DNA from: Phocaeicola dorei
GTDB taxonomy: Bacteria; Bacteroidota; Bacteroidia; Bacteroidales; Bacteroidaceae
Direction of reading: 5' to 3'
NCBI RefSeq assembly: GCF_013009555.1
Contig: NZ_CP046176.1
Location: 2,139,501-2,203,500, forward strand
DNA length: 64,000 bases
The notes under the pieces were generated by a model. That model had not been told where the DNA came from. It was given only the letters and a program-made list of their open reading frames with translations, and did not search any database. The position numbers and the translations under genes were made by a program. The first letter of the stretch is position 1; each line of letters opens with the position of its first letter. Positions 6,273-33,968 of this stretch are shown here, piece by piece.

Positions 6273-6309
6273 GGAGCTTGCCCGGTAAAACGGTGTCAAG
6301 CTCTTTTTT
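6273..6309 (+). terminator. Rho-independent terminator after DUF3826 gene
   Basis: Stem GAGCTTG (6274-6280) pairs with CAAGCTC (6297-6303), extended by an inner CCG/CGG pairing, and is followed by a run of T (about 6304-6309). It separates the first PL1/DUF3826 unit from the second PL1 unit. Confidence 0.75.
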
Positions 6310-6348
6310 ATGTGTGGATAGAGAGTACAACAAGCTTTCTGTTCCGTC

Positions 6349-6380
6349 TTTGATATAGAAATATTCGCAATGTGTGTTTG
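6349..6380 (+). promoter_or_regulatory. Candidate Bacteroides sigma-ABfr promoter for second pectate-lyase unit
   Basis: TTTG at 6349-6352, a 20-bp spacer, then TGTGTTTG at 6373-6380, one base off the TAnnTTTG -7 consensus. It lies between the terminator at 6309 and the gene starting at 6445, giving a leader of about 58 nt. Confidence 0.45.
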
Positions 6381-6444
6381 AATCATGTTAAAAGCAGAGT
6401 ATTATGTTATGAAGTTATAGAAAAAATAATAATTTAGCAACCAA

Positions 6445-8127: not shown

Positions 8128-8128
8128 A

Positions 8129-15527: not shown

Positions 15528-15550
15528 CAAAAACATTAAAGACAAAAAAG

Positions 15551-17521
15551 ATGAAAAGATCATTATATAATATGGCTTTAGCCATTTGCACAGCAGCAGC
15601 TATGTACTCATGCTCTTTGGATGAGTATAATCCTAGTGATACATCTGGAGAAGGAGAGTTAAAAACTGTAGAAGGCTTGAAAAATTTGGGTACTTATTGC
15701 TATTCTCCACTTTATGACCAAATGTTTTCTGCTTCCGATTATTTGGCTGTAGCGGAAACCGGTACAGATTTATGGCTCACTCAAAATAATAAAACAACAT
15801 TGCAGCAATTGTTCTATTATGAAGGGTTGACTACTAGTACTAATGCTACAGACAAACTGTTTTCTCAAGCTTATGCTTGTATTAATACTTGTAATGCAGT
15901 GATAAATCGTGCAGCAGATGTAACTGAGGGAGATAAGAATGTACTGAAAGTTGTAGTAGCTGAAGCAAAGTGTTTGCGTGCTTATTATTATTTGGTACTT
16001 GTGACCAATTATGGCAATGTGACGTTAGTAACTACAGAGTCAACAGATACCAAAATAATGAATCCCACTCGTTCGTCACAGGAGGAAATTTACAATCTTA
16101 TTATAACTGATTTGCAAGAAGCTGCTGCTGACTTGAATACAACTCCTATGGATGGTAACTATGCCCGGGTAACAAAGAAAGCTGCTTTAGGTTTGTTGGC
16201 CAGAGCTTATGCGCAGGGAGCAGGTGAAGGTTTAAGCGAAAATGGTGTTTCTTATTGGCAGCGTGCTAAAGAAGTTGCAGAAGACTTGATTGCCAATATG
16301 GCTTCTTATAATGCATATTTGTATGATGATGTTGAAGATGTATGGGCACAAAGTAATAATCGTAACAATAAAGAAGCTTTGTTTATAGCTTCGGGACCCC
16401 AGGCAGGAACTGATGCTTTTACATATGGTTCGTATGGAGCGAATAAATTATTTACTTTCACATTCTGTGATCCTAATAAATTGAGTGATATTTATCCTGT
16501 GGGCAGTAAGCAAAATTACTTCTATGGTCGTGTGAATAATAATTATTATGCACCTTCTAAATATTTAGTGGACTGTTTTGATGCACGTTATGATAAACGT
16601 TGGGAAAACTCATTTACAACAGCTTTTTCTCTGTTCTCCATGGTACAGGCTGGATGGCGCACATACGATGATAAGAATGCAACAATTACATTAACTGAAG
16701 ATTTGTGCACTAAATATGGCATTGATTCTAAATTTGTAGGAAAGAAGATATATCCATATGTTGATGTTAATGCTATTAATCTAGGTTCTAATGGTGGTAA
16801 TCAATATGTTGCCAGTGTTTGGCCTAAAGGAGAATATTCTGGTGATGTCAATAAGTTGGTTAAAGTGAAGAATCCTTATGTGAATCCTTATCCATTAGCA
16901 GAGGATGAAGATCGTTTTATCGTTTATTTATCAAAAGAGTATTTGAGTGCTGCTGAAAAAGCAAAGCGAGGATATATTTGTGTGAATATTGATGATTTGT
17001 TTGCAGCAGATGGTAAATACAAGGAAACATTTATTGATGCCCAGCAGACAAATACCTATACTTTATTTCCTTCATTGAATAAGTTTAATTTTAATTTCGA
17101 GGGAGGTTTTTATGGAAGTAATTTGCAATGCAAAACTGGCGACATGTTTATTATGCGTATGGCTGAAGTGTATTTGATTGCGGCTGAAGCGGAAGAACGT
17201 TTGGGAAATGGTGCAAAAGCAGCTGAGTATTTGAATGTTCTTCGTAAGCGTGCTTGTCGTAATGAAGCTGATTTCGAAGCTAATATGAAATTGACTACTG
17301 CCACAGAGGATGATGTGTTGGATGAATATGCTCGTGAATTGTGTGGTGAGTTTACCCGTTGGGCTTTACTGAAACGACATAAAGCTTTTGAAACTCGATT
17401 GCCTAAATATAATCCTCGTGCTGCCGCAAATTTTAGCCAGAAGAATTATTTACGTCCTATCTCATATACATTCTTAAATCAGATAGAGAACTCTGCTGAA
17501 TACGGTACTAATGGTTATTAA
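15551..17521 (+). CDS. SusD/RagB-family outer-membrane lipoprotein, partner of SusC at 12312
   Basis: 656 residues. Lipoprotein signal ending in AAAMYSC (lipobox Cys21), then LDEYNPS, which is typical of SusD starts. TPR-like features include AEAKCLRAYYYLVLVTNYGNV; the C-terminal block EVYLIAAEAEERLGNGAKAA and DEYARELCGEFTRWALLKRH is characteristic. 23 bp after susC and followed by a strong terminator. Ligand unknown. Confidence 0.94.
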   Translation: MKRSLYNMALAICTAAAMYSCSLDEYNPSDTSGEGELKTVEGLKNLGTYCYSPLYDQMFSASDYLAVAETGTDLWLTQNNKTTLQQLFYYEGLTTSTNATDKLFSQAYACINTCNAVINRAADVTEGDKNVLKVVVAEAKCLRAYYYLVLVTNYGNVTLVTTESTDTKIMNPTRSSQEEIYNLIITDLQEAAADLNTTPMDGNYARVTKKAALGLLARAYAQGAGEGLSENGVSYWQRAKEVAEDLIANMASYNAYLYDDVEDVWAQSNNRNNKEALFIASGPQAGTDAFTYGSYGANKLFTFTFCDPNKLSDIYPVGSKQNYFYGRVNNNYYAPSKYLVDCFDARYDKRWENSFTTAFSLFSMVQAGWRTYDDKNATITLTEDLCTKYGIDSKFVGKKIYPYVDVNAINLGSNGGNQYVASVWPKGEYSGDVNKLVKVKNPYVNPYPLAEDEDRFIVYLSKEYLSAAEKAKRGYICVNIDDLFAADGKYKETFIDAQQTNTYTLFPSLNKFNFNFEGGFYGSNLQCKTGDMFIMRMAEVYLIAAEAEERLGNGAKAAEYLNVLRKRACRNEADFEANMKLTTATEDDVLDEYARELCGEFTRWALLKRHKAFETRLPKYNPRAAANFSQKNYLRPISYTFLNQIENSAEYGTNGY

Positions 17522-17874: not shown

Positions 17875-17992
17875 AAGAAAATATACTTTTTATTTAACGT
17901 ATTTTTATAATTAATCTTGAGTACAGGAGTTTTTTATATGCGTCATTTGAATAGATATAATAAAATAAATCTTGTTAACTATTATAACAGAA

Positions 17993-20900
17993 ATGAAAAG
18001 CATGAAAAAAAGTCCGAAACAAAATTGGGAAAGTAATATCAGACGTACTCCCATTATTTTAGGGTTATCGGCAGCATTATGTATGCCGTCTGCATTTTCT
18101 TATGCAAATGCAAGTGACCCTGTTGCCGGTGAATTGGTTCAGTCTGTCCAGCAAGGACGTACTGTCACAGGTAAAATCATAGATGACACAGGGGAACCGT
18201 TAATTGGTGTATCCGTACTGGTGAAAGGTACAACGGTGGGTACGATTACCGATTTTGACGGTAATTATTCTTTGGAAGTTCCTTCAGGTAAGAATATTCT
18301 TGTCATATCTTATATAGGATATAAGACACAGGATATAACGGTGGGAAAAAGCAATCAGCTGAACATTAAAATGGAGGCCGATACGCAGGCTTTGGATGAA
18401 GTAGTCGTTGTAGGTTATGGCGTGATGAAGAAACGTGACCTTACAGGTTCTATTGCTTCAGTGAAGGCGGCTGATATTGTAAAATCACCGGCATCTAATG
18501 CCATGGAAGCATTGCAGGGGCAGGTTCCGGGTTTGGATATTGTACGTAATTCAGGTAAGGCTACTTCGGGTGTAACCATTAATATTCGCGGCCAGCGTTC
18601 ACTGTCCGATGTGAAAGATGAGTTTGGTAACAATGTTGCCAATGCTCCGCTGTTTATCATTGATGGTATGCAGGGAGGTGATTTCTCGGATATTGCTCCG
18701 GCTGATATTGAGTCTATTGAGGTGTTGAAGGATGCTTCTTCTACGGCAATTTATGGTTCACAAGGTGCTAATGGGGTAATCATTATAACAACCAAGAAAG
18801 GTGCGCAAGGCAAAACAAAGTTTTCTTATAATGGTTATTTTGGTGTAAACGGGTGGGCGCAATATCCTGATATGCTGAGTGGGGAAGACTATATGCAGGT
18901 GCGTCGTGAAGCTGCTCGTACTGGCGGTCAGTGGAATTCTACCGCCGATGACCAGAAACTTTTCACTGTGGAGGAATGGCAGGCCATTCAGAACGGTGAG
19001 TGGACTGACTGGATAGATGAGGTGCTTCATACAGGGCTTGTTCAAAGCCATCAGGTTACAGCGTCAGGAGGTACGGAAAAGACCACCGCGATGTTGTCTG
19101 CCGGATATTATCAGGAAAAGGGTTCTTTCAAAAATGATAAAATGGATAAGTACAACTTGCGTATGAACATTGAGCACAAGTTAGGCAAGACCGTAAAAGT
19201 AGGAGCTACTACACAGGTCACTCATTATGCACAAGATGAGCGTGCCGAGAATGTGCTATGGCGCGCTGCTACTAATGCGCCTCTTGGTAAAGCATACGAT
19301 GAAGACGGTAAAGTGGTAGAATATCCATTAGGAAAGAATGGACAGGTGAGTCCGTTGGTGGATGAGGCATCTGAAGTGGCTGCAAGACATCATGTGCTGA
19401 AAACAAATTTGATAGCTAATGGGTATTTGGATTTTACTCCTGTTGAAGGATTGACTTTCCGTTCTAATTTAGGAACCAATTATGCTTTTTATCGTAAGCA
19501 GGATTTTGAAGGGGCCAGTTCTATTGACCGTTTGGGACAGAATTCAACGTCACTGTCCAAAATCAAATCTTCCGAAAAGAGTTTTGTGAATTGGGATAAT
19601 ATTATCAGTTATAACAAAACCGTCAAAGATCATACTTTTGGTGCCACTGCATTGACTTCGTGGACACAATCCAAATATACATCAGTGAATGCGCAAGGAG
19701 AGGGCCAGTTGGTTGATTCATACTTATGGCATAATCTGGGTGCCAATGACAAAAGCTCTTATGTCATTGGATCGGATTATATACAGCACCAGACTTTCTC
19801 GTATGCTTTGCGCTTCAACTATAGTTATAAAGGCCGTTATATGTTGACGGTTTCTAATCGTTGGGATGGTAACTCACGTTTGTCTAAAGGTAATAAATGG
19901 GCAAGTTTCCCTTCTGTAGCTGCTGCATGGCGCATTAGTGATGAAGCGTTCATGAAGAATGTGGAAGCTCTGAGCAACTTGAAGTTGCGCTTAAGTTGGG
20001 GTAAGACAGGTAACTCGGGTATCATGGCCTACGGAACTCAGTCGGGCTTGACTCCGAAAACCAACTCTGCTTTCCAGGATAATGGCTATACCTATTATAT
20101 ATACAATGAATATGTAGGTAATGAGAATGTAGGCTGGGAGATGTCCAATACCTGGGATCTGGGTTTTGATATCGGTTTGTTCAATAACCGTATTTCGGCT
20201 GTTGTCGATTTATACCAGACAAAGACTACTGATATCCTGTTGCCCCGTACTTTGCCTACTTCTATGGGTGGTAGTAACGCAACTCCGTTCAAGATGTATC
20301 AAAATATCGGTGCAACCATGAACCGTGGTATTGAAGTATCGGTAAATACCGTCAATGTGGATAACAAAAACTTTAAATGGAACTCCACTCTTACCTTTGC
20401 TGCCAATCATGAAGAGATTACCGATCTGATTGATGGCAAAGACATCATTGGATCAGATTCGCATATTACGACTAGTTTGTTGATTGGACGTCCTTTGAAA
20501 TCATTCTATCATTTTATTAATGAGGGAATCTGGCAGGAAAATGAGGCTGAAGAAGCAGCTAAATATTTTAAAGATTCAAAGAAGACACAACCCTTCAAAC
20601 CGGGTGATATCAAACTGAGAGACTTGAATGGTGACTATATTATTGATGATAAGGATGAAACTTACCTGGGTAGCCAGTCACCGAAATGGACAGGTGGATT
20701 CAACAACAACTTTAGTTATAAGAACTTTGATTTGAACGTATATATTATCGCTCGTTGGGGGCAGATGATTGATTATGAGCTGACCGGTTCTTATGATCCT
20801 CAGGGAAAAGGTAACTTCCCTGCTTACTTGAACTATTGGACGCCGGAGAATCCGTCCAATGATTTTCCGCGACCGGCTCAGACCAATTTCTATAACTATC

Positions 20901-21151
20901 TGGGTTATCAGACTTTGAATTACATTGATGGTTCGTATTGGAAGATCAAGACTGTATCACTGGGGTATACATTCCCCAAATCGTTGACTTCAAAATTGGG
21001 CGTGTCCAAACTTCGTGCATATGTCACCGCCAATAATCTCTTCTCTTTTGCCAAGAATCATTTGATTCAGGATTACGATGCAGAACGCGGAGGGTCAGCA
21101 AAAGCTCCGTTGCAGCGTCAGTTTATATTTGGTTTGAATCTTGATTTCTAA
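17993..21151 (+). CDS. SusC/RagA-family TonB-dependent outer-membrane transporter (second pair)
   Basis: Start chosen at ATG 17993 (1052 residues); an in-frame TTG lies at 17972, but alignment to the SusC at 12312 supports the ATG. The signal region is nearly the same as in that paralogue (RRTPIILGLSAALCMP then SAFSYANA). Carboxypeptidase-regulatory-like domain with GKIIDDTGEPLIGVSVLVKG, TonB box DEVVVVGYG, plug (ALQGQVPGLDIV, PLFIIDGMQGG, IEVLKDASSTAIYGSQGANG), barrel ending GLNLDF. No STN domain. Pairs with SusD at 21175. The nearly identical N-termini of the two SusCs suggest tandem duplication or recombination. Confidence 0.95.
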   Translation: MKSMKKSPKQNWESNIRRTPIILGLSAALCMPSAFSYANASDPVAGELVQSVQQGRTVTGKIIDDTGEPLIGVSVLVKGTTVGTITDFDGNYSLEVPSGKNILVISYIGYKTQDITVGKSNQLNIKMEADTQALDEVVVVGYGVMKKRDLTGSIASVKAADIVKSPASNAMEALQGQVPGLDIVRNSGKATSGVTINIRGQRSLSDVKDEFGNNVANAPLFIIDGMQGGDFSDIAPADIESIEVLKDASSTAIYGSQGANGVIIITTKKGAQGKTKFSYNGYFGVNGWAQYPDMLSGEDYMQVRREAARTGGQWNSTADDQKLFTVEEWQAIQNGEWTDWIDEVLHTGLVQSHQVTASGGTEKTTAMLSAGYYQEKGSFKNDKMDKYNLRMNIEHKLGKTVKVGATTQVTHYAQDERAENVLWRAATNAPLGKAYDEDGKVVEYPLGKNGQVSPLVDEASEVAARHHVLKTNLIANGYLDFTPVEGLTFRSNLGTNYAFYRKQDFEGASSIDRLGQNSTSLSKIKSSEKSFVNWDNIISYNKTVKDHTFGATALTSWTQSKYTSVNAQGEGQLVDSYLWHNLGANDKSSYVIGSDYIQHQTFSYALRFNYSYKGRYMLTVSNRWDGNSRLSKGNKWASFPSVAAAWRISDEAFMKNVEALSNLKLRLSWGKTGNSGIMAYGTQSGLTPKTNSAFQDNGYTYYIYNEYVGNENVGWEMSNTWDLGFDIGLFNNRISAVVDLYQTKTTDILLPRTLPTSMGGSNATPFKMYQNIGATMNRGIEVSVNTVNVDNKNFKWNSTLTFAANHEEITDLIDGKDIIGSDSHITTSLLIGRPLKSFYHFINEGIWQENEAEEAAKYFKDSKKTQPFKPGDIKLRDLNGDYIIDDKDETYLGSQSPKWTGGFNNNFSYKNFDLNVYIIARWGQMIDYELTGSYDPQGKGNFPAYLNYWTPENPSNDFPRPAQTNFYNYLGYQTLNYIDGSYWKIKTVSLGYTFPKSLTSKLGVSKLRAYVTANNLFSFAKNHLIQDYDAERGGSAKAPLQRQFIFGLNLDF

Positions 21152-21174
21152 CAGATAAAAAAGAAATAACTATT

Positions 21175-22950
21175 ATGAAATACGGTAAAAAATATATGTT
21201 TGTAGCATGTGCTGCTCTGTTATTGGGCATGCAATCATGTGATTTGGAGGAATACAATCCTGCCGGAAGTACCCCGGATAACGTGTACAAAGAACAGGCC
21301 GGTTTTGAGGCCCTTGTCAATTCGGCTTATGCTTTTTGGGGCGGTCAGTTTTATGGACGTGAAGATTTTGTGTTATTGCTGAACGGTGGTGGCGATCTTT
21401 GGATCAATATTGCCAATTGCGGTTATGGTCGTCAGATGTCTAAATATGAAGAATTGACGGCTTCGGTTGGTCAGATTAAGAACACGTGGAATCGTCTGTA
21501 TGAAATTATAAACGACTGTAATGCCGGTTTGGAACGGATTGACCAAGTGGAATTCAAAGACAAGAAACTGAGAGATATCCGTTTTGGTGAATTAAGTTTC
21601 ATGCGTGCTTACGCTTATTGGCATTTGGTTGAAATTTACGGTAACGTGGATCTTAGGACCAAAGAAACTTCTGCCGAAAGTCTTTCAATGAATTGTTATC
21701 GCAGCAGCTATGAAGATTTATATGATTTAATGCTGACTGATGCGCAAAATGCGGTGGATAATCTGCCCGTTGATCCTTATCCTGTTAAAGATGTAGGTCG
21801 TGCGACCTCAAAAGCAGCATACGGCTTGTTAGCGCGCATCGCACTGACACGGGTTTCCTATTGTGACAGTCAGGCAGACAAAGATAAATATTATAAAATC
21901 GCTGAGGATGCGGCTCAATATGTGATTGATAACCAGAGCGCATTGAAGGTGTCTTTGTATAATACACCTGCCGAAGTTTTTGATCCGGATAATAATAAAA
22001 CGAATAAAGAGGCTATGTTCGTTGTGACCCACTCTACTGAGTCATCATTGAATATGCAGGCTAAAAACCCGAACCGTATGCATATGTATTTCCATGCCAG
22101 TTATTCGGCAAGAGCAGGTATGGTACAGGATTATGAATATGGAAATGATAAGAATGCCAAGTCGGGTAGTATGGCGATGATGCCTACCCGTTATTTATTG
22201 GAATTGTATAATGAGGATATAGATGCTCGTTATAATGCTTGGTTCCGTGAAGAGTATAAACTGAATACACCCCAAGCTTATGCCTGGACTAAGGATCAGT
22301 TGGACTATTTTGAAAAACCGTCATCTATGATTGGTCAGGTTATTCAGCCGGGAGAAACAGCGCTACTTTTCACCAAGAAGAAGATTGCTGGCAAACGTAA
22401 CTTGCCATATGCTGTCGTCGATATTGATGATACCTATGCAGCCGATGGAAGTGTCAGCAAGAGTGCCAACTTTAACATTCACTTCCCGACATTGCTAAAG
22501 TACGAAGATGCGAATTTTGAAAACAAAGGCTTGCCTACCAATTCGCAGGTAGGTGCAAATGATGTGATTACCATGCGTTTGCCCGAAATGTATTTCATTG
22601 TTGCCGAATGTGAGATAATGAAGTCCGGAGGAAATAAGGAGATAGCTAAAGCACGTATCAATGACATACGCAGACGTGCGGCTGTACCGGGCAAGGAAGC
22701 TGAAATGGAGGTAGGAGTGGACAAGATGACGATCGACTTTATTTTGGAAGAAAGAGCACGTGAGTATTGCGGCGAATTCATGCGCTGGTTTGATTTGAAA
22801 AGAACCGGAAAATTAGTAGAATATGTGAAAGCTCATAATCCGGACATTCCATTGATTCAACCGCATCATGCATGGCGTCCTATTCCTCAGATGTTTCTGG
22901 ACTCTATCTTGAATCCGGATGAATTTGGTCAGAACGAGGGATATAATTAA
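21175..22950 (+). CDS. SusD/RagB-family outer-membrane lipoprotein (second pair)
   Basis: 591 residues with lipoprotein signal ending LLLGMQSC (Cys22), then DLEEYNPAG. SusD features include RFGELSFMRAYAYWHLVEIY and near the end PEMYFIVAECEIMKSGGN and EERAREYCGEFMRWFDLKRTG. It starts 23 bp after its SusC and ends 5 bp before the phosphatase gene, so all three are probably co-transcribed. Confidence 0.95.
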   Translation: MKYGKKYMFVACAALLLGMQSCDLEEYNPAGSTPDNVYKEQAGFEALVNSAYAFWGGQFYGREDFVLLLNGGGDLWINIANCGYGRQMSKYEELTASVGQIKNTWNRLYEIINDCNAGLERIDQVEFKDKKLRDIRFGELSFMRAYAYWHLVEIYGNVDLRTKETSAESLSMNCYRSSYEDLYDLMLTDAQNAVDNLPVDPYPVKDVGRATSKAAYGLLARIALTRVSYCDSQADKDKYYKIAEDAAQYVIDNQSALKVSLYNTPAEVFDPDNNKTNKEAMFVVTHSTESSLNMQAKNPNRMHMYFHASYSARAGMVQDYEYGNDKNAKSGSMAMMPTRYLLELYNEDIDARYNAWFREEYKLNTPQAYAWTKDQLDYFEKPSSMIGQVIQPGETALLFTKKKIAGKRNLPYAVVDIDDTYAADGSVSKSANFNIHFPTLLKYEDANFENKGLPTNSQVGANDVITMRLPEMYFIVAECEIMKSGGNKEIAKARINDIRRRAAVPGKEAEMEVGVDKMTIDFILEERAREYCGEFMRWFDLKRTGKLVEYVKAHNPDIPLIQPHHAWRPIPQMFLDSILNPDEFGQNEGYN

Positions 22951-22955
22951 TAAGC

Positions 22956-24394: not shown

Positions 24395-25405
24395 ATGAGT
24401 AAACTGAATATGAAAGAGTGGATAAACGAAATTATCCAAAAGAAAGAAGTGGTGGCTATGCCCATCATGACCCATCCGGGCATAGAGATGATAGGGAAAA
24501 CGGTGCGTGATGCGGTTACTGACGGACAAGTGCATTACAACGCCATCAAGGCATTGAGTGAGAAATATCCCACAGCCGCCGCAACCGTGATTATGGATTT
24601 GACGGTAGAAGCCGAGGCTTTCGGAGCGGAGATTGTCTTCCCCGAAAATGAGGTTCCCAGTGTAGTGGGGCGTCTTCTTGCTAATGAGGAGGATATTGAA
24701 AAACTGAACATTCCTGCTTTGAATAAAGGAAGAGTCCCCCAGTATCTGAAAGCAAATATGTTGGCAGCCAAGACAATAACGGACAGACCTGTCTTTGCCG
24801 GTTGCATCGGCCCTTACTCATTGGCAGGACGTTTGTATGATATGTCTGAAATCATGATGCTTATTTATATCAATCCGGAAGCGGCGAATTCGTTGTTGAA
24901 GAAATGTTCGGATTTCATTCTCCGTTACTGTATGGCACTGAAGGCTACAGGGGTGAATGGGGTAGTGATGGCCGAGCCGGCTGCCGGACTCTTGTCTGAT
25001 GAGGATTGCCGGCAATACTCGTCTGTTTTCATTAAGGAGATAGTAGAGAAAGTGCAAGACGATCACTTCACAGTCATTCTGCATAATTGTGGAAATACCG
25101 GTCATTGTACTAAGGCAATGGTAGCTACAGGAGCTGCCGCTTATCATTTTGGAAATAAAATAGATATGGTCGAAGCTCTGAAAGAAGTACCTGCGGATTC
25201 TCTTGCAATGGGAAATCTTGATCCGGTGAGTTTGTTCAAGGCGGCTACTCCGGAGGTGATGAAGAAAGCCACACTCGACCTGTTGGGGGCTACCAAGTCC
25301 TATCCCAACTTCGTGCTCTCCAGCGGATGTGATACACCGCCTCATACACCTTCTGAAAATATTGATGCATTCTTTGCCGCATTAAATGAATTCAATAATG
25401 CTTGA
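24395..25405 (+). CDS. MtaA/CmuA-like (uroporphyrinogen decarboxylase superfamily) zinc methyltransferase
   Basis: 336 residues, no signal peptide, cytoplasmic TIM-barrel of the UroD/MtaA superfamily. The zinc-ligand pattern His-x-Cys...Cys of methylcobamide:thiol methyltransferases is intact: VILHNCGNTGH gives His230 and Cys232, and SSGCDTPPHTP gives Cys312. A true heme-pathway HemE lacks this motif. Expected role: moving a methyl group between a corrinoid protein and a thiol or pterin acceptor. Bacteroides has no coenzyme M, so the acceptor is unknown. Overlaps the next gene by 8-20 bp. Confidence 0.85.
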   Translation: MSKLNMKEWINEIIQKKEVVAMPIMTHPGIEMIGKTVRDAVTDGQVHYNAIKALSEKYPTAAATVIMDLTVEAEAFGAEIVFPENEVPSVVGRLLANEEDIEKLNIPALNKGRVPQYLKANMLAAKTITDRPVFAGCIGPYSLAGRLYDMSEIMMLIYINPEAANSLLKKCSDFILRYCMALKATGVNGVVMAEPAAGLLSDEDCRQYSSVFIKEIVEKVQDDHFTVILHNCGNTGHCTKAMVATGAAAYHFGNKIDMVEALKEVPADSLAMGNLDPVSLFKAATPEVMKKATLDLLGATKSYPNFVLSSGCDTPPHTPSENIDAFFAALNEFNNA

Positions 25406-26084
25406 AAAAGAACTTTCTTTTGCTGATCTGCCTATCTCATTGTCCGAAATCTATGAGACGATGGGATATGCAGATGCTGTACCCGACGAAGCAGTAGAAA
25501 AAGAAGTCCGTGGGGTGCTTGGACGGGTTGAGGCAGTAACTTCTCCCCGTTTTTGTTTTTTCATATCCGGTGGAGATTTGGATGAAACAAAAGATTTGCT
25601 TACTGTCGGTAAAACTAGTTTCAGTATAGGTAAAATAATAACCCGGCAACTGCGTGGTTCGGAATCCTTCGCTTTCTTTGCCGCGACTGCCGGAACTGGT
25701 TTTGAAAAGTTCCAGCATACGTTGCAACAAGAGGGGGATATGGTAAAGGTTTATATAGCGGATGCCATAGGAAGTATCATAGCCGAGAAGACTGCGGATT
25801 GTATGGAAATTGCATTGGATGAATACATTCACGACAGAGGGTGGAGGCATACGAATCGTTTCAGTCCCGGATATTGCGGCTGGCATGTGTCGGAGCAAAA
25901 GAAATTATTTCCCTTATTTCCTTCAGCGGAACCTTGTGGCATCCGGTTGACAGATTCCAGTTTGATGCTTCCTATAAAATCGGTCAGTGGAGTAATAGGA
26001 CTGGGGGATAGTGTCCGTAAACTGGAATATACTTGCGGTCTCTGTACGTACGATAGATGTTACAGGCGGAAGCAGCGGGGATAA
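25386..26084 (+). CDS. MetH-activation-domain protein, candidate corrinoid reactivase
   Basis: Up to 232 residues from ATG 25386; ATG 25398 (228 residues, 8-bp overlap with the preceding gene) is an alternative. Shows the S-adenosylmethionine-binding signature of the B12-dependent methionine synthase activation domain: NRFSPGYCGWHVSEQKKLF, then GIRLTDSSLMLPIKSVSG. In MetH this domain remethylates oxidised Co(II) cobalamin. A stand-alone copy beside corrinoid methyltransferases fits reactivation of their corrinoid protein. The C-terminus carries a CGLCTYDRC cysteine cluster (Cys217, Cys220, Cys225) that could bind metal or Fe-S (inference). Confidence 0.85.
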   Translation: MNSIMLEKELSFADLPISLSEIYETMGYADAVPDEAVEKEVRGVLGRVEAVTSPRFCFFISGGDLDETKDLLTVGKTSFSIGKIITRQLRGSESFAFFAATAGTGFEKFQHTLQQEGDMVKVYIADAIGSIIAEKTADCMEIALDEYIHDRGWRHTNRFSPGYCGWHVSEQKKLFPLFPSAEPCGIRLTDSSLMLPIKSVSGVIGLGDSVRKLEYTCGLCTYDRCYRRKQRG

Positions 26085-26174
26085 TAGGATGGCTACAAAA
26101 ATCAGAGTCCCAAATGGCTAGATGTTGTTATTAATCTCATTGATTTTACAATTTGTTGCAATCTTAATGAATCT

Positions 26175-26193
26175 CCTGTCCTATCAAGACAGG
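26175..26193. terminator. Hairpin between convergent methyltransferase units
   Basis: CCTGTC (26175-26180) / GACAGG (26188-26193) with a 7-nt loop, between the plus-strand activation gene and the minus-strand symporter. No strong T-run on either side, so terminator function is tentative. Confidence 0.35.
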
Positions 26194-26239
26194 TTATAAC
26201 AGCTGTCCCCATCTGCTGTAACAGCTACTTTCATCTGAT

Positions 26240-26303
26240 GTTCCACCCTGGTGAAACTCCAGTCCCACCGGGGTGGAACTGCAATTTCACCGGGGTGGGA
26301 CTG
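26240..26303. repeat. Cluster of interleaved CACCGGGGTGG-type inverted and direct repeats
   Basis: Nested dyads: GTTCCACCC (26240-26248) with GGGTGGAAC (26271-26279), and CAGTCCCACC (26260-26269) with GGTGGGACTG (26294-26303). The units CCACCGGGGTGG and TCACCGGGGTGG recur, with a diverged CTACCCGAGTGG after them. It lies between convergent genes. It looks like a multi-copy intergenic repeat family of this genus rather than a CRISPR array; copy number elsewhere cannot be seen here. Confidence 0.7.
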
Positions 26304-26375
26304 CCTCACTACCCGAGTGGAATACCAAACGTAGGCATATAAAAATACAATCTTTTCAGCCTTCTGCACCTTCTT

Positions 26376-27947
26376 TTAATGCCCATTGAAGAATAGATAA
26401 AGCCCGATCATGATAATAGTCAGTAGCGTCCATGCAAGGATAACCGATTTGGCCGGTTTCTCCATGACTTTCTTCATGTTTAATGTACATTCTTGCCGGC
26501 GTTTATCCAATAAGGATACCAAAATCATGCCTGCGCTGATGACAACGAACAGGTAGAAAGACAGCATCATGAAGTGAGGCCATGCTGTATATTTTTCTGC
26601 AGGAAATACCCATAAATAGAGAATGCCCACTCCCATGCTGAACGCCGTACCAAATGTCAATGCCATGTTGGCAGCCATCGTGGTAGTTCGTTTCCAGAAG
26701 ATGCCGAACAGGAAAACAGCCGCCATAGGCGGTGCGATAAATCCCAGTACCGATTGGAATACATTAAACAGATTCAATCCTTTGATACTGTCTATGGCAA
26801 TGGTGATGATCACCGAAATCAGTGCTCCCGCCATTGTAACCACATGCCCTGTACGGATGATCTCTTTCTGGCTGGCAAGCGGTCTGAATTTCTTGACATA
26901 GATATCCATCGTGAAGACGGTACTCAGCGCATTCAGGGCAGAGCCGACAGTGCTGATCAGTGCGGCGGTCAATACGGCGAGTACCAACCCCACCATGCCT
27001 ACAGGAAATAAGTTAGTGACCATAGTCATGTAGGCTTCATCGGGGTTCTTCAAGCCCGGGTAGAGTGCCAGACAGATGATACCCGGAAGGATATAGAGAG
27101 GAACATCCAGTATCTTCAACCAGCCGGTGAAGTTGGCACCCATTTGGCCTTCTTTCAGATTCTTAGCAGCCAATACAGGCTGTACCATGGATTGGTCTGT
27201 GCACCAGAACCAGACTCCCATGATGGGATACCCCAGAATAATGGGCAGCCACGGGAAGGCGGGATCGTCATTCGGGCGGAACAGGTTCCAGTAATCGGCC
27301 GGAACCGCTTCGGCCAATGCGCTGACGCCACCCACTTTGTAAAGACCTGCTATAGTAAGCGTGGCCGATACGAAAATAAGCAGAAGCATTTGGAATACAT
27401 TGGTATAGGCTACCGCTTTCAGCCCTCCGGCCATGGTGAAGAATGCGGAGATAACGAGCAGGATTAATGCTGACTGCCACATGGGAATATCGAAAACCTG
27501 ACGGATAAGGATACCTCCGGCGAATAAGGTCAGGGCAAGCCACGAGATAAGGATTGTCACAATGGTGTACCAGGCAAGAATGTTGCGGGTGGACTGTCCG
27601 AAACGCCGCCCCATGAACTCCGGCAAGGTGGTGATACGTGCTCCTAAGTAACGAGGGGCAAAGACAAAAGCCAGCAAGCAGATGAAAACAAACGCATACC
27701 AGGCATAATTACCTGAAACGATACCGGTGGTAAATCCGGCACTGGCGGAGGCTATCAGCATGGAAGGGCCCACATTGGTTCCCCACATGGAGAAACCGAT
27801 GTGATGCCACTTCAGGGAACGCTCGGCAAGAAAAAGGCTACTGCCTTTTTTGCGTTTCAGACTGGCCCATATGCCGATGCCTATAAGAATCAGAAAGTAG
27901 GCAATAAGAATGCCCCAATCTAATGTATCTAAATAATTAGCGTGCAT
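26376..27947 (-). CDS. Sodium:solute symporter (SSS family)
   Basis: 523 residues, about 13 hydrophobic membrane segments, beginning DWGILIAYFLILIGIGIW. The SSS-type first-helix region (FLAERSLKWHHIGFSMWGTN, SMLIASASAG) and the LPEFMGRRFGQSTRNILAWY segment are typical of sugar/inositol SGLT-like transporters. Inner membrane, sodium-coupled uptake. Last gene of a minus-strand operon (beta-helix, GH31, UroD-corrinoid fusion, symporter), 33 bp after the fusion gene. It probably imports the sugar or methylated compound processed by the operon (inference). Confidence 0.92.
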   Translation of the reverse strand: MHANYLDTLDWGILIAYFLILIGIGIWASLKRKKGSSLFLAERSLKWHHIGFSMWGTNVGPSMLIASASAGFTTGIVSGNYAWYAFVFICLLAFVFAPRYLGARITTLPEFMGRRFGQSTRNILAWYTIVTILISWLALTLFAGGILIRQVFDIPMWQSALILLVISAFFTMAGGLKAVAYTNVFQMLLLIFVSATLTIAGLYKVGGVSALAEAVPADYWNLFRPNDDPAFPWLPIILGYPIMGVWFWCTDQSMVQPVLAAKNLKEGQMGANFTGWLKILDVPLYILPGIICLALYPGLKNPDEAYMTMVTNLFPVGMVGLVLAVLTAALISTVGSALNALSTVFTMDIYVKKFRPLASQKEIIRTGHVVTMAGALISVIITIAIDSIKGLNLFNVFQSVLGFIAPPMAAVFLFGIFWKRTTTMAANMALTFGTAFSMGVGILYLWVFPAEKYTAWPHFMMLSFYLFVVISAGMILVSLLDKRRQECTLNMKKVMEKPAKSVILAWTLLTIIMIGLYLFFNGH

Positions 27948-27980
27948 AATTCATGTATCAGATTAAGATGAATATTCCGT

Positions 27981-29783
27981 TTATTTATGAAGCCCCATCA
28001 GTTCCTTGGCTACCGCTACGGCCGTATTGGCATTGTCGCTATACCCGTCCGCACCTATTTCATCGGCGAATCCCTGGCTTACGGGAGCGCCGCCTATCAT
28101 CACTTTCACTTGATTACGGATACCGGCTGCTTCCAGGGCGTTGATGACATCCTGCATATAAGTCATGGTTGTTGTCAGCAAAGCACTCATACACAAGATA
28201 TCTGCCTTGTTTTTCTTGACCTCTTCCACGAACTTGTCACAAGATACGTCGATACCTATGTTAATGACTTCAAAGCCGCAACCTTCAAGCATGGATGCCA
28301 CCAGGTTTTTACCGATATCATGCAGATCACCTTTGACAGTTCCGATGACTACCTTGCCTATGGTAGTTGCTGCACTTCCCTGCAATAAAGGTTTCAGAAG
28401 TTCCAAAGCTCCCTTCATGGCGCGTCCTGCCATCAGCAGTTGGGGAACAAACGCTTTTCCATCTTGGAAGCGTTGTCCTACTTCCCCCATAGCTTTTATC
28501 ATGTAATTATTGATAATTTCTTGGGGTTGTATGCCTTCGGCTATGGCCTTTTTGGTTACTTCTACGGCCGGTTCCAGCTTTCCGTCCACAATGGCGTTGA
28601 ACAAAGGTTTTAGAGCTTCATCTTCGGTGGCTTCGGGACTTTTGATTATAATTGTTTCTTGTTTCGTTGCAGCGTCTTCCTCTTTCGAAAGGCTTTCTTT
28701 GGATGCGGCAGGTGATGAAGAGGAGTATTCTTCGACAATGCGCATGGCTTGTTCCACTTCTTGTTCATTATGAAAATCCATTTCCAGGTGCACACCATCC
28801 GCTCCGATGTTGTCCAACAAAGGTTTCAGTTCATCCAAAGTTACCCAACATGCCATGATACTCTTTCCACCGGCAAGGATTTTCTTGTAAAGGTCATACC
28901 ATTTAGGTGATCCTCCTTGTGGCTCACCCACTCCCGGAGTCCATTGAATGGCGTTCAGCTCTTCAATTTCGAGAAGGGCGGGCAGGTGATGCATGGCGCC
29001 TACGCCGTCCAGATGATACAAGGTATAGTCTATCTTTTGACATTGTTCGCGGATAAAGGGTTGTACAAAACGACGATAATCATCTTCGCTGATCATGGTA
29101 GAAATATCGCTTTGTAATTTGCTCATTTTACCGGGAGCCCATGAAGAAAAATAGCAGAAGGCCATTTCATCCCCTTCACGGATGATATCGTAAAGTTCAT
29201 CGAACACCTTGAAGTAGATGTCATTAATCTGTTGCATCTGCTGTTCCAGTACTTCGGGTTGCATTACAGTATCCAGCAACACTTTATCCGTACCTTTCAG
29301 TGCGGCCAACACATCCAGGCCTTCCATCAGATCGGGCATTCCTACGTAATAATGACCGTTTGCCTTCGCTTTGCATGCTTTCAGTAATTCCTTATGCAGA
29401 ATCCAGTTAGGGTGCTCGGGATTGAAAACAATTTCATCGTTGAAATCCGGATCAGGATGAATCCAGATTGTATCTTCTCCTCCTTCGAATACGCCTCCTA
29501 AAATAGCTGCCAGTGAACCGGGGCCTAACTGGGTATTGGCAACCGGCAGGATATCTGCTTTCAGGCTGCTGTGCGCTACGTACCAATCCAGATATTCTGC
29601 ACGCCATTGTGGGTCGAACCATTTTTGATTCAAATCTTTCGCCGGAGCCGGTGCTGGAATATCTGCGTGGGGCTTCACTCCCTTTTGGAAGTGTTCCCAC
29701 ATATTCAGTATGATTCCTTTATGATTCCACCAATCTATATATCGCTTTTTTGTTTCTTCTAAATTTGTTTTCCAAGTTTCCAT
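27981..29783 (-). CDS. UroD-family methyltransferase fused to a corrinoid (B12)-binding protein
   Basis: 600 residues, cytoplasmic. Residues 1-355: UroD/MtaA-like TIM barrel, but with LYHLDGVGAMHHLP where zinc enzymes have HxCG, so the zinc site is missing. Residues 355-385: low-complexity Ser/Glu/Lys linker. Residues 387-465: helical B12-binding cap. Residues 475-598: Rossmann B12-binding domain with the base-off motif DxHxxG (Asp486, His488, Gly491 in KGDLHDIGKN), then SALLTTTM and GGAPVSQGFADEIGADGY, as in MtaC/MetH. This puts a substrate:corrinoid methyltransferase and its carrier on one chain. 5 bp after the GH31 gene. Confidence 0.9.
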   Translation of the reverse strand: METWKTNLEETKKRYIDWWNHKGIILNMWEHFQKGVKPHADIPAPAPAKDLNQKWFDPQWRAEYLDWYVAHSSLKADILPVANTQLGPGSLAAILGGVFEGGEDTIWIHPDPDFNDEIVFNPEHPNWILHKELLKACKAKANGHYYVGMPDLMEGLDVLAALKGTDKVLLDTVMQPEVLEQQMQQINDIYFKVFDELYDIIREGDEMAFCYFSSWAPGKMSKLQSDISTMISEDDYRRFVQPFIREQCQKIDYTLYHLDGVGAMHHLPALLEIEELNAIQWTPGVGEPQGGSPKWYDLYKKILAGGKSIMACWVTLDELKPLLDNIGADGVHLEMDFHNEQEVEQAMRIVEEYSSSSPAASKESLSKEEDAATKQETIIIKSPEATEDEALKPLFNAIVDGKLEPAVEVTKKAIAEGIQPQEIINNYMIKAMGEVGQRFQDGKAFVPQLLMAGRAMKGALELLKPLLQGSAATTIGKVVIGTVKGDLHDIGKNLVASMLEGCGFEVINIGIDVSCDKFVEEVKKNKADILCMSALLTTTMTYMQDVINALEAAGIRNQVKVMIGGAPVSQGFADEIGADGYSDNANTAVAVAKELMGLHK

Positions 29784-29788
29784 TTTCG

Positions 29789-32035
29789 TTAGTCTTTAAA
29801 TATTCCTTTAAAATGATTGTCAATGTGCAATTCAACGCTCTTACTTAAATCCATCTCATCCGTACACTCCACCTCATCCGGGTAAACAGGAATAGTCGCT
29901 CCCTGACGTACATATACGGGCATTTCGTCCAAGGGGACATCCAGGTCTTTTAACCAACGTCCTCCTTCCAGCACTTCACCGGTGAAGAAATTCACCCATT
30001 GTCCTTCGGGCAGATAGACGTCACGGCGGTTTTCACTGTTCATGACCGGAGCTACCAGGAAGTCGTTACCGAAATAGTACTCATCGTCGATGTGCCAGCA
30101 CAGCTTGTCTTCAGGGTGATGAAAAATCAGAGCTTGCAAGAGAGGTGCTCCGCTTGAGATAGCTTTCCGACTTTGTGCTATAATATAAGGTATAAGTGTA
30201 TAGCGTAATTTCCACCATTTTTTTATTATCGGAGCAATAGCCGGATAATGCCACGGCTCACGTTTGTTTGTTCCGTGATAGCGGATGTGTGAGGAGAATA
30301 CGCCGAATTGTGTCCAGCGCATGTATACATCATCGGCTACTACAGAGTTCATGAAGTTAGGTAATGTATGGAATCCCGGAACATCATGGCTCCAGAATGC
30401 AAATCCGGAGAGTCCGAAATGTAAGCCGCCTTTCAGTGAGCCTGCCATCCCATCCCATGAACTGCATGAGTCACCTCCCCAATGCAGCGGATAGCGCTGG
30501 CATCCTGCCCATGCCGAGCGTGCCCATACAATGCCGTCACCGGTAACGTCTTTTGTGATTTCATAAGCGGCTTTCTGATAAAGCAATGCATACAGGTTGT
30601 TCAGCAATTCGGGTTTCATGCCTTTATAGAGAGCATCCATGTGGATGTTTTCTCCAAAATCGGTTTTGATACAGGTCACGCCCATATCCAGCAGATTCTT
30701 CAGCAGTTCTTTATACCATTCGGTTGCTTTGGGATAAGTGAAGTCAATGGTTCCGGCATAGTCCAAAGCGGAGAAATTGGAACCTTCCGAATCTTGTTTC
30801 TTTGTTAGCGGAGCTATATAATCGTTTTTGCGTGCTTCGTCTATCTGTTCGGCGTTTTCGGCCACGTAGGGGAGTTGCCATAAGGATACGCGGTATCCTT
30901 TTTTCTTCAGGCCTTGGATGAACCCTTTGGGATCGGGAAAGCGTTCTTCGTTGAATTTCCATTCGCACAGCCAGTCGGTCTTGAACCAGCCGGTGTCCAG
31001 ATGGATTACATCGCAGGGGTAATGCTCGGCACGCATCCGGTCGCATATCTCATTTACTTCATCAGCACTGAAATAAGTCATGCGGCTCATCCAGATGCCA
31101 AAGCTCCAGAGGGGAGGCATAGAAGGATATCCGGTCAGATCCCGGTAGCCCCGGAGGATTTCTTCCATAGTATTACCTGCTATGATGAAGACGTCCAGCA
31201 TGGCCTGATCGCTCAGAAACTGTACCGAGCGGGTGGATTGTCCTGCCAATGACAGTTTACTATGGGCGCAGGTATGATAGAATGTTCCATACATCCGGCT
31301 GGAGAGGTAGAAAGGAATATTCTTATAAGTACGGCGGTTGTTTACACCTTGGCCATCCTGATTCTTTAAGAAGAAAGTTTGTCCGCTTAAGTCCATTTTT
31401 GCGAAGCGTTCCCCTGTTCCGGCAAAACATTCATCAGGCTTTGATTCAAAGGAAAGAGTGGCACGTTCCTTCATTCCGTTTCGTTTGCAGAAAGCCAATG
31501 GCAGCGCATCGTAACGGGGAGGGGAGAAGTGGTCGTAGGCAGCCAGGCGGATTTCACGTTTGCCGTCAGGGTAAAGGCGAAGATCCAATGTTTCTTGAGG
31601 ATCGGGCAGGAGTTCGCTCCAACGGTCTAATACCGGAGGCTTTATATTGATAAGTGCCCGTTGTATTCCGTCTTGGGTGGAGATAATCCATTCACCTTCT
31701 ACTTGTGTTACTTGCAAAGGAAGTTTCTTTATCCGGTCGCTGAATTGAAGCATTTCTGATTGATCCGTCATGCTTTCTTCACCGAATCCGATAAAGAGCC
31801 GGGTGATGCCTGAGGTATATTGACGGATGACCAGCGTATATTCTTCACGGGGGAATGCAGTATCGGGTGCCATATCGTTAGAGAGCACTTGCTTTTGGAA
31901 GGGGACACTTATGCAGATATCTCCATCTTTTTCATAGACTGCGGTGGGCTTGTATGCTTTCCATAATGATTCGTCTCTTGACAGATCAGGATCAAAGTCC
32001 AGAAAATCGAATAAGTGGTAATTAGTTGGTTTCAT
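29789..32035 (-). CDS. GH31 alpha-xylosidase/alpha-glucosidase (YicI-like), cytoplasmic
   Basis: 748 residues without a signal peptide. The catalytic nucleophile is Asp459 in CIKTDFGENIHMD; the KTDFGE form is that of YicI-type alpha-xylosidases. The acid/base is Asp522 in PLHWGGDSCSSW. The C-terminal VYVRQGATIPVYP strand is typical. It would cleave a terminal alpha-linked sugar from an imported oligosaccharide in the cytoplasm. Lies 25 bp after the beta-helix gene and 5 bp before the corrinoid fusion gene, so it is tightly operonic with methyl-transfer functions. Confidence 0.93.
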   Translation of the reverse strand: MKPTNYHLFDFLDFDPDLSRDESLWKAYKPTAVYEKDGDICISVPFQKQVLSNDMAPDTAFPREEYTLVIRQYTSGITRLFIGFGEESMTDQSEMLQFSDRIKKLPLQVTQVEGEWIISTQDGIQRALINIKPPVLDRWSELLPDPQETLDLRLYPDGKREIRLAAYDHFSPPRYDALPLAFCKRNGMKERATLSFESKPDECFAGTGERFAKMDLSGQTFFLKNQDGQGVNNRRTYKNIPFYLSSRMYGTFYHTCAHSKLSLAGQSTRSVQFLSDQAMLDVFIIAGNTMEEILRGYRDLTGYPSMPPLWSFGIWMSRMTYFSADEVNEICDRMRAEHYPCDVIHLDTGWFKTDWLCEWKFNEERFPDPKGFIQGLKKKGYRVSLWQLPYVAENAEQIDEARKNDYIAPLTKKQDSEGSNFSALDYAGTIDFTYPKATEWYKELLKNLLDMGVTCIKTDFGENIHMDALYKGMKPELLNNLYALLYQKAAYEITKDVTGDGIVWARSAWAGCQRYPLHWGGDSCSSWDGMAGSLKGGLHFGLSGFAFWSHDVPGFHTLPNFMNSVVADDVYMRWTQFGVFSSHIRYHGTNKREPWHYPAIAPIIKKWWKLRYTLIPYIIAQSRKAISSGAPLLQALIFHHPEDKLCWHIDDEYYFGNDFLVAPVMNSENRRDVYLPEGQWVNFFTGEVLEGGRWLKDLDVPLDEMPVYVRQGATIPVYPDEVECTDEMDLSKSVELHIDNHFKGIFKD

Positions 32036-32060
32036 TTCCTTTTGTTATATTGTTTTATAA

Positions 32061-33968
32061 TTATTCTTGATTGTTTTCCTTCTGTATTCGGGTGGATTCA
32101 ATGCTCCCTTGTAGTGGTGTAAGGCACTTTAGGGGGAGTCTGCCCGCCTTTTGTTTTATACTTTTATCTACTTGCGGACCATTCTTCTTCCACACATTAT
32201 GAGGCCCCGGCCGGTTGGAATCGAAACGCTGGGATGGGCACCAGTTGTTTTCTACGGTATAGCCATCTGTCGCTTCATCAAAATAGATGTAAAACGCACG
32301 GTCATTAGTAGCGTATGGAGCATCCGTTAAATGTTCAATCCGGTTATTACGTATTACAGAGCCTGGTTGGTTGGAAAGGGTATAGAGTCCACCGGCATCA
32401 TATAGTCTTCGGGCGAAATGGTGGACGTAATTAGCCTCAATCCGGTTCCCACTCATTCCGCTTTCCAGTAACGTCCATCCCCATCCCACACAGATACCTG
32501 AATAATTGACGTGGCATACCTCATTATGTACTATGTGGATATTCTTTACATATCCGGCACCGATACCTACGCATCCCCAATCTTCATTTGTCACTTCCTC
32601 TATCAAGTTATTCCGTATCGTGATTCCCGTACATAATTCCTGTTCATGAAAGGGTTTGTAAGGTACATGTGTTTCAAATCCTTCGTGGGGAAAAGTACCT
32701 ACTAATAAGGCTGTTCCACCTATATCAGTGAAATGGCAGTTTTCAACGGTGGAAGCCGATACGGCGCGTTCATAATCTACTCCCGTAGCTGCCAAGTGCT
32801 GAAATGTGCAATGGTTGAAATTGATGTTATTACCGCATTTTATCTGTATTGCTGCCTCGGGTCTGTCTATCCATGCCTGGTTTTCCAGTTCGGCTTTTTC
32901 GGGTAATCCGGGGATGCTTAGCTTGTAAGCGTCCAATAGATGGAGTCCTCCTTGCAATGTAACGTGCCCTTGATAAGATGGGCGCATCCATGAGGTATGC
33001 TCGAAAGATATATTTTGGAAATGTATATTCCTTACAGGGCGTTCCAATGTTCCGCTTATAGTTAGTAAAGTTTCTAAAGCCGGAATAATGACTTGTGCCT
33101 TCGTCATGTCTTCGTGAGGACGTGGGTAATAGTAAATGCGTCCGGAGGGATAATCCTGATACCATTCTCCGGGTTGGTCCAATAGTTCCAAAGCGTTGAC
33201 CAGACAAAAAGAGGAATTTCCTTTTTCTCCGTCGATGACAGGTTGAGGCCAGGGATGGGCAAACTCCAACCGGCTTTCGGGATCATGAAAACGGACAATT
33301 GTTTTTGCTCCTTGGGTAAGCATTTCCTCTACTCTCAGTATGGCGATGGCCCAACGTTGGTGAACAATCATTTCCAGTTGTGAAGCAGTAGTCAGACCTG
33401 CTGTTTGTGGAGTAGGGATAGTAATTGTTTCCTCTTCCGGATTGAAATCAATCATGCGTTCCATCACACCGTCCGGAAATTGGGAAGCCCGTTGTGCTTT
33501 TACTCCATTTATCCACATTTGACGGGTTTCCAATATTCTGTTTCCTATATGAGGAGCTTCTGCCACCCATATCTTTTTTCTTATGGATGGAGGTATTCTG
33601 TCATCTCCACATCCTTGTTTCCAGTCTGTTACAGGCATTCCTCCGCTTAGGATTACACGAGCGCCGGGAGCAGCTGTAATGAGAGTGGGAGAGTCTGTTG
33701 TTCCGCTATCTTCGGGCCGGATGAACAGACTTTTATATTGTGGATATATTCCTTCCTCTAGTATGATATTTATACCTCCTGCTGTTTCGGGCATTTGCAG
33801 TCTTCTCCATTCACGTGCCTGTTTTATAGCCTGCTCCAATGTTTGAAGAGGATGTTGGCGTGTGCCGGCAGCCTTGTCGTCGCCGCGAGGGGAAATGTAA
33901 ATATCTCCTGCAATTAAATTAAAGGTATAACTGAAAAATGCTATAAAGCAAATAAATGTTGTTTTCAT
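32061..33968 (-). CDS. Secreted right-handed beta-helix protein, possible glycan-active enzyme
   Basis: Start placed at 33968 (635 residues): it gives a clean signal peptide (hydrophobic residues 4-17, ending NLIAG) with a GGAG sequence just upstream; the frame is open to 34028 but that extension masks the signal. The mature start, DIYISPRGDDKAAGTRQHPL then TLEQAIKQAREW, is typical of parallel beta-helix proteins (YVSP.G.D...GT...P..TL..A). Later segments repeat beta-helix turns (IRNNLIEEV, IHIVHNEVCHVNYSGI, SGNRIEANYVHHFARRLYDAGG). Exported lyase or hydrolase-like protein, substrate unknown. First gene of the operon. Confidence 0.82.
   Translation of the reverse strand: MKTTFICFIAFFSYTFNLIAGDIYISPRGDDKAAGTRQHPLQTLEQAIKQAREWRRLQMPETAGGINIILEEGIYPQYKSLFIRPEDSGTTDSPTLITAAPGARVILSGGMPVTDWKQGCGDDRIPPSIRKKIWVAEAPHIGNRILETRQMWINGVKAQRASQFPDGVMERMIDFNPEEETITIPTPQTAGLTTASQLEMIVHQRWAIAILRVEEMLTQGAKTIVRFHDPESRLEFAHPWPQPVIDGEKGNSSFCLVNALELLDQPGEWYQDYPSGRIYYYPRPHEDMTKAQVIIPALETLLTISGTLERPVRNIHFQNISFEHTSWMRPSYQGHVTLQGGLHLLDAYKLSIPGLPEKAELENQAWIDRPEAAIQIKCGNNINFNHCTFQHLAATGVDYERAVSASTVENCHFTDIGGTALLVGTFPHEGFETHVPYKPFHEQELCTGITIRNNLIEEVTNEDWGCVGIGAGYVKNIHIVHNEVCHVNYSGICVGWGWTLLESGMSGNRIEANYVHHFARRLYDAGGLYTLSNQPGSVIRNNRIEHLTDAPYATNDRAFYIYFDEATDGYTVENNWCPSQRFDSNRPGPHNVWKKNGPQVDKSIKQKAGRLPLKCLTPLQGSIESTRIQKENNQE

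Follow-up and report, generated by a model that had tools for sequence, protein, structure and literature searches.

Why would a gut anaerobe keep genes for corrinoid-dependent methyl transfer side by side with glycosidase genes and a sugar-type symporter? The question is raised by a 64,000-nucleotide stretch of the Phocaeicola dorei genome (hereafter the window; G000:C1:2139501-2203500 in a single-contig genome of 5.63 Mb), in which six neighbouring genes bring these functions together. The original prediction, made from the DNA letters and their open reading frames (ORFs), proposed that a corrinoid protein takes the methyl group from an O-methylated sugar and that the glycosidic bond is then cleaved. 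Comparative evidence supports this proposal: the gene set and its motifs are conserved, a marker of rhamnogalacturonan II (RG-II) degradation co-occurs with it, and the reported product of BT1002, a relative of one of the encoded enzymes, fits it. These sequence comparisons give good support to a corrinoid system that removes the methyl group of an O-methylated sugar in conjunction with glycosidic cleavage, and the earlier reading can be narrowed: the glycan is likely RG-II, the methyl sugar 2-O-methyl-xylose and the methyl acceptor homocysteine. With a probability of roughly 60%, we read the locus as a module that demethylates an O-methylated RG-II sugar without oxygen, most probably 2-O-methyl-D-xylose from side chain A. 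We give more weight to the broader proposal, that a methyl sugar derived from RG-II is demethylated through a corrinoid, than to the identity of the sugar, which we infer.

All six ORFs that had been proposed are present, in position and strand, on re-reading of the window. The forward strand carries an MtaA-like zinc thiol methyltransferase, the putative second methyltransferase (MT2; 24395..25405; URO-D, 189.9 bits in Pfam), and, overlapping its gene by 20 bp, a small protein resembling the MetH activation domain, a putative corrinoid reactivase with a Cys-rich C-terminus (25386..26084; Met_synt_B12, 58 bits). Facing them on the reverse strand are a GH141 beta-helix enzyme related to BT_1002 (32061..33968), a YicI-like GH31 enzyme with no signal peptide by eye (29789..32035), a fusion protein of 600 residues (27981..29783) and an SGLT-like Na+/solute symporter (SSS), the putative importer of a methylated saccharide (26376..27947; SSF, 190.8 bits). 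The gaps between these four genes are 25, 5 and 33 bp, as originally described. The fusion joins an N-terminal domain of URO-D fold, here called FUSN (28665..29783, reverse strand) and a putative methyl-sugar:corrinoid methyltransferase, or first methyltransferase (MT1), to a C-terminal corrinoid-binding domain (27981..28616, reverse strand). What had been described as a secreted beta-helix protein keeps both the beta-helix and, by eye, a signal-like N-terminus, and is more precisely a member of family GH141 (GH141_M, 218.6 bits); its ORF in the program-made list begins at an upstream TTG, at 34028. No B12 or S-adenosylmethionine (SAM) riboswitch matched Rfam at the gathering threshold within the window.

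Is this combination of genes kept elsewhere? Scanning the contigs of named genomes with FUSN gave 211 relatives, and the best 80 (loci L044-L123) are the basis of the locus counts. In a protein search with FUSN, the lowest of the best 120 matches, out of 4083, was 91% identical, and relatives beyond the Bacteroides/Prevotella group may exist. The window's FUSN is 97% identical to those of P. sartorii and of Phocaeicola vulgatus ATCC 8482 (L044), and the latter has the six-gene set. An ORF with FUSN is present in 79 of the 80 loci, L079 being without one in the ORF call. Within the fetched flanks of these 79 loci, many of which end early and so shorten the flanks behind the counts, GH31 is found in 53, GH141 in 52, MtaA in 48, the activation protein in 47 and the symporter in 46. 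In the 47 well-flanked loci, whose fusions have 5.0 kb or more in front and 7.9 kb or more behind, the corresponding counts are 37 for GH31, 36 for the symporter, 34 for GH141 and 33 each for MtaA and the activation protein. All five partner genes lie near the fusion in 26 of the 47, which argues that the gene arrangement is not due to chance. GH31 lies upstream of the fusion in 33 loci, in the order GH141-GH31-fusion-SSS, and downstream of it in 20, where the fusion is followed by the activation protein and MtaA on the opposite strand and then by GH141-GH31-SSS. A gene set that persists through such rearrangement argues for one function. The conservation of the six genes across Bacteroidota, on which the original prediction was staked, is found in records of Phocaeicola, Bacteroides and Prevotella, in two gene arrangements.

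Does the fusion have the parts of a corrinoid methyltransferase? Pfam places B12-binding_2 (78.6 bits) and B12-binding (101.3 bits) on residues 392-589, and the corrinoid DxHxxG motif reads GDLHDIGKN in 77 of the 80 fusions, including that of the window, the three misses being fusions at contig ends. The corrinoid half of the proposed UroD-corrinoid fusion thus stands by Pfam; the UroD half stands by fold and not by family. FUSN matches no Pfam family even at E<=1, and its structure models match the URO-D and MtaA folds, which is consistent with an MT1 of this fold. No match of FUSN to the NCBIfam MtaA/CmuA model TIGR01463 was found (the NCBIfam matches of the fusion begin at residue 369 or later), and a profile comparison of FUSN with the window's MtaA-like protein, made on a very shallow alignment (Neff 1.26), was not significant. 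A phylum-wide search of 292 genomes with a FUSN profile returned only the genome of the window and a weak 46-position match in G116; in the absence of distant relatives the profile could not be deepened. Four residues are invariant in FUSN (H257, D259, H332 and E334) and are, on conservation alone, candidates for a metal or acid group.

The MtaA-like protein is the sole URO-D match in the genome and falls below the cut-offs of the MtaA, MtbA and CmuA models of NCBIfam. Its zinc motifs HNCG and S[ST]GCD are present in all 49 orthologues, including the window's; we take the pattern H-x-C...C to be the motif of zinc thiol methyltransferases. The Met_synt_B12 match of the activation protein covers only profile positions 113-268 of 273. 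The motif R[FY]SPGYC is found in 48 of 48 activation proteins, again including the window's, and the CGLC....C tail in 25 of them by a strict pattern and in the 23 others by eye. The genome also holds a full-length activation protein (337 bits against 52.5 bits for the locus copy in the same search), so that the copy at the locus is probably an extra, dedicated one, and elsewhere a MetH-like gene, a frame of 949 residues seen by eye in part.

Where would the methyl group go? An extra domain lies between FUSN and the corrinoid domain in 67 of 79 fusions (recognised by motif; five of them are truncated where the contig ends). The extra domain of L099 is PF02574, homocysteine S-methyltransferase, at 279.7 bits, and its NCBIfam match is to the N-terminal part of MetH. 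An upstream Cys is present in all 66 fusions that have GGCCGT, and the two together presumably form the zinc site of homocysteine S-methyltransferase domains. A further example of the long form comes from the genus of the window itself (genome G325, locus L132). Twelve relatives, from Bacteroides, Phocaeicola and the record L114, are without the homocysteine domain. The window's fusion is likewise without it by Pfam, which counts against homocysteine as the acceptor at this locus. No pterin-binding domain was matched by Pfam in either the window or the L099 fusion. Both the long and the short forms occur with MtaA and the activation protein, which points to the same acceptor in both; it is probably homocysteine, and MtaA, with its zinc motif intact, would serve the short form. 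In three loci of distant Bacteroidota (L128, L129 and L130), genes for a URO-D-like and a corrinoid protein adjoin an unfused homocysteine S-methyltransferase-like gene (checked with NCBIfam on L129 only), and these neighbourhoods fit the same acceptor logic. As for L114, its record is titled as a metagenome-assembled genome of Paenibacillus sp. and holds a Bacteroidota-like locus, whose fusion has 715 residues and a longer linker and is without the homocysteine domain; the record may be mistitled, or the contig assigned to the wrong bin.

A fusion that lacks an acceptor domain in the window, and whose FUSN belongs to no Pfam family, might be inactive as a demethylase and act as an accessory or regulatory corrinoid protein. 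However, its corrinoid motif is intact, MT2 and the activator are kept in many loci, and conservation within the set is highest in FUSN, with a median identity of 88%—a value inflated by the choice of loci through FUSN—compared to 77% for the corrinoid domain of the fusion and 55-76% among the five partners. We regard an inactive fusion as highly improbable.

Which sugar would be demethylated? Glycans of plants and algae contain O-methylated sugars, and the distribution of FUSN points to one such glycan, RG-II. We take PF24067 (BT_1020-like) to be a marker of RG-II use and followed it in 251 genomes of the family Bacteroidaceae and in a genus sample of 61 genomes. In the family sample FUSN is found in 11 genomes and PF24067 over its cut-off in 25; in the genus sample these numbers are 4 and 6. 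The marker is present in 11 of 11 FUSN genomes and 14 of 240 others in the family (Fisher p 9e-13), and in 4 of 4 against 2 of 57 in the genus (p 3e-5), p-values that overstate the case and serve as a guide only since the genomes are related, the 11 FUSN genomes falling into 4 genera. A general richness in glycan enzymes as the source of this co-occurrence is unsupported by the one control family, GH76, which in the family sample is over the cut-off in 45 of 251 genomes and in 0 of the 11 with FUSN (one match below the cut-off, in G469). Near the fusions of the 80 loci we find BT_1020-like genes in 4, GH78 in 13, GH106 in 7 and L-fucose isomerase (FucI) in 7. The genome of the window has an RG-II-type cluster at C1:1790549-1806223, with GH95, a member of the GH88 family, an apiosidase, GH78, GH127, a rhamnosidase-like gene and a BT1002-like GH141 (G000:C1:1802241-1804064), and a BT_1020-like gene at 1971009. 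Genome and neighbourhood thereby appear linked to RG-II degradation enzymes, by association only. RG-II is reported to contain methyl sugars (PMC12168206), and BT1002 to release 2-O-methyl-D-xylose-alpha-1,3-L-fucose from its chain A (PMC10154630, with which PMC12786026 agrees). This product, an alpha-linked methylated pentose, fits the presence of a symporter, a cytoplasmic GH31 and a demethylase.

Besides the relatedness of the genomes, several observations weigh against this reading. No GH31 is found nearby in 10 of the 47 well-flanked loci (L052, L054, L060, L083, L087, L093, L109, L120, L121 and L122), four of which (L093, L109, L121 and L122) have a BT_1020-like gene. The 14 PF24067 genomes of the family sample that are without FUSN indicate that RG-II as such can be used without the module, and two of the 11 FUSN matches, in G427 and G457, have an internal stop. 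In these two genomes the match (residues 1-355) has one TAA inside and an open frame of 357 residues, and PF24067 is matched in two pieces.

Both glycosidases of the locus bear on the identity of the sugar. The nearest solved relative of the GH31 enzyme is PDB 5f7c (746 residues aligned, 1592.8 bits), presumably BT_0339 of Bacteroides thetaiotaomicron, and the next is YicI. The motifs TDFGE and HWGGD, which we assume to hold the catalytic Asp residues of GH31, are found in the window protein, aligned with YicI; among the 54 GH31 ORFs from the relatives, each occurs in 51. Of the proposed alpha-xylosidase-like GH31, then, the family is upheld (TIM barrel PF01055, 292 bits), and the xylosidase is not. 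The xylosidase YicI has HFDCFW where 51 of the 54 ORFs have HLDTGWF; C307 and F308 of YicI, which we take to be the xylose-determining positions, are Thr-Gly in this GH31 clade. The window protein also reaches 492.7 bits where the NCBIfam alpha-xylosidase cut-off is 606, so these tests leave xylose specificity unsupported. BT0339 is listed as 'Alpha-xylosidase' in an iron-response table (fold value 2.138 beside 0.336; PMC10434189), an entry not used here. The GH141 enzyme has BT_1002 as its best solved relative (PDB 5mqp, 582.5 bits) and shares with this enzyme of RG-II degradation in B. thetaiotaomicron the family, the insertion domain, the beta-helix and the catalytic Asp pair: D523 and D564, reported to be critical in BT_1002 (PMC10154630, PMC12786026), both align with Asp in the window protein (chain numbering shifted by 5). 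However, the fusion-linked GH141s form a clade apart from the BT1002-like enzyme. Orthology of the window's GH141 with BT1002 was rejected, as 49 of 49 fusion-linked GH141s resemble the window's more closely than they do the genome's own BT1002-like enzyme, and the GH141 of the window may cut a different bond.

The GH31 residues and the separate GH141 clade mean that the substrate could be another methyl sugar handled by the same chemistry, such as 2-O-methyl-L-fucose from chain B of RG-II, or a methyl ether of a hexose that sits in a GH31 subsite shaped differently from that of YicI. RG-II is reported to have 2-O-methyl-fucose as well, but the enzyme said to free it is GH139 (PMC12282258), and the glycosidases linked here are GH141 and GH31. 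The L-fucose isomerase near some fusions could be taken as a sign of a methylated fucose, but it suits the unmethylated fucose of the disaccharide equally well. We consider another sugar unlikely, and 2-O-methyl-D-xylose remains the preferred substrate.

With that substrate, the pathway would run as follows. A SusC/SusD pair would take up RG-II fragments, and GH141 enzymes, the BT1002-like one of the genome and/or the one at the locus, would free 2-O-methyl-xylose-alpha-1,3-L-fucose, as reported for BT1002. The symporter, related most closely among solved structures to chains named sodium/glucose cotransporter 1 and 2, would bring the disaccharide into the cell, where the cytoplasmic GH31 would split the alpha-link. 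The URO-D-fold FUSN would then pass the O-methyl group to cob(I)alamin bound by the corrinoid domain of the same fusion, so that xylose remains. Transfer of the methyl group to homocysteine would yield methionine, in the long fusions through their built-in homocysteine S-methyltransferase domain (the domain itself is plain in the sequence) and in the short fusion of the window probably through the separate MtaA-like protein. The small activation-domain protein, judging by its family, would re-reduce oxidised cobalamin. Such a corrinoid route, if true, would explain the fate of RG-II methyl sugars in gut anaerobes and would connect the pectin of the diet with the supply of vitamin B12 and the synthesis of methionine.

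Is the coupling to glycosidases peculiar to this locus? Corrinoid domains similar to the one in the window's fusion (E<=1e-30) occur in 7 of the 61 genus genomes. Four of the seven have FUSN, and in the loci fetched for these GH31 lies beside it. The modules of the other three have a URO-D-family protein, a corrinoid protein and MtaA in a one-strand run with other glycosidases: a GH120-type enzyme at L124:2947-8657; GH130 together with genes for a sugar transporter and an epimerase-like protein (by eye), next to GH26 and GH28, at L125:535-6567; and GH2 with an SSS symporter at L126:159-7982. In the fetched stretches of the distant corrinoid loci L127-L131, viewed by eye on ORF starts only, no glycosidase of such kind was seen. 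The genus modules suggest a general link of corrinoid demethylation with glycan use, perhaps with different methyl sugars.

These modules also bear on whether the donor is a sugar at all. The locus could be a methionine-synthesis or one-carbon module that takes choline, betaine, a methoxy-aromatic or methanol from pectin and whose association with carbohydrate genes is incidental. Pectin methyl esters release methanol, and MT1s of the URO-D superfamily are reported to include aromatic O-demethylases. Known corrinoid systems take betaine and methoxy-aromatics (PMC12478193, PMC8630106). However, the link with GH141, GH31 and a sugar-type symporter is kept in two arrangements, corrinoid modules elsewhere in the genus go with other glycosidases, and no gene for aromatic or amine breakdown was seen among the 25 recurrent neighbour clusters listed (by eye, partly with Pfam). 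A non-sugar donor appears decidedly unlikely.

If the donor is a methylated sugar, the window and the GH120-, GH130- and GH2-linked modules could be members of a Bacteroidaceae class of glycosidase-coupled corrinoid demethylases, namely sugar-ether:homocysteine methyltransferases, a proposal that we hold at slightly less than even odds. Such enzymes would be MetH-like, with a methylated sugar as the donor in place of methyl-folate, and there is a realistic chance that the present locus is the first recognised member of the broader class. Oxidative demethylation of 6-O-methyl-galactose requires oxygen; the class, if true, would let anaerobes use O-methylated glycans without it and gain methionine.

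How does the locus compare with known systems? The methoxy-aromatic O-demethylase systems (MtvB, OdmB, VdmB, MtoB), reported to move an ether methyl to Co(I), likewise have a URO-D-superfamily MT1, a corrinoid protein, a second methyltransferase and an activator (PMC13222342, PMC8630106). The locus differs from them in the fusion of MT1 and corrinoid protein in one chain, the lack of a Pfam URO-D match in FUSN, the glycosidase and sugar-type symporter partners, the homocysteine domain of many relatives, and an activation protein of MetH type rather than an ATP-dependent activase. The chloromethane methyltransferase CmuA has different partners, and the window's FUSN is without a match to the model that covers it. 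MetH resembles the long fusion in its homocysteine S-methyltransferase and corrinoid domains, and has a counterpart to the activation-domain protein, whereas the fusion has FUSN and no pterin-binding domain and, in the window's form, no homocysteine domain. MtgBCDE of marine bacteria, described as tying glycine betaine demethylation to methionine synthesis, is similar in that a corrinoid core is shared by a catabolic methyl donor and homocysteine, but as presented there it has betaine as the donor, a pterin-binding MtgD and no glycosidase (PMC12478193). The parts of the locus are of known kinds; the combination of a sugar-ether donor, a homocysteine acceptor and coupling to glycosidases in Bacteroidota was not found in searches of a library of open-licence papers, and neither was a description of corrinoid demethylation of sugars, judged on titles and the starts of abstracts. 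If the reading is true, corrinoid demethylation, reported for aromatics, haloalkanes and betaine, would extend to carbohydrates.

Two SusC/SusD pairs lie ahead of the six genes on the forward strand, and either is a possible outer-membrane importer of the module. Orthologues of the first pair (12312..17521; genes at 12312 and 15551) are found beside MtaA in three relatives, L053, L088 and L106, on the same strand and 138-154 bp away (identity: SusC 68-71%, SusD 77-78%). For the second pair (17972..22950; genes at 17972 and 21175), the close relative L045 has orthologues (94-97% identity) that share the strand of MtaA and are separated from it by 179 bp. In the window, the second pair and a branch-2 histidine phosphatase (22956; His_Phos_2, 37 bits; phytase-like as a guess) stand between the first pair and MtaA (17972-24245). 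The phosphatase gene does not lie between SusC/SusD and MtaA in the relatives, and is therefore left out of the module. Further upstream (1759-11215), a subtilase, two TSP3-repeat proteins, a DUF3826 and a DUF6298 protein precede an ECF-type sigma factor (11399). An orthologue (69%) of the protein encoded at 3819 is present in the stretch of L120 that holds a fusion.

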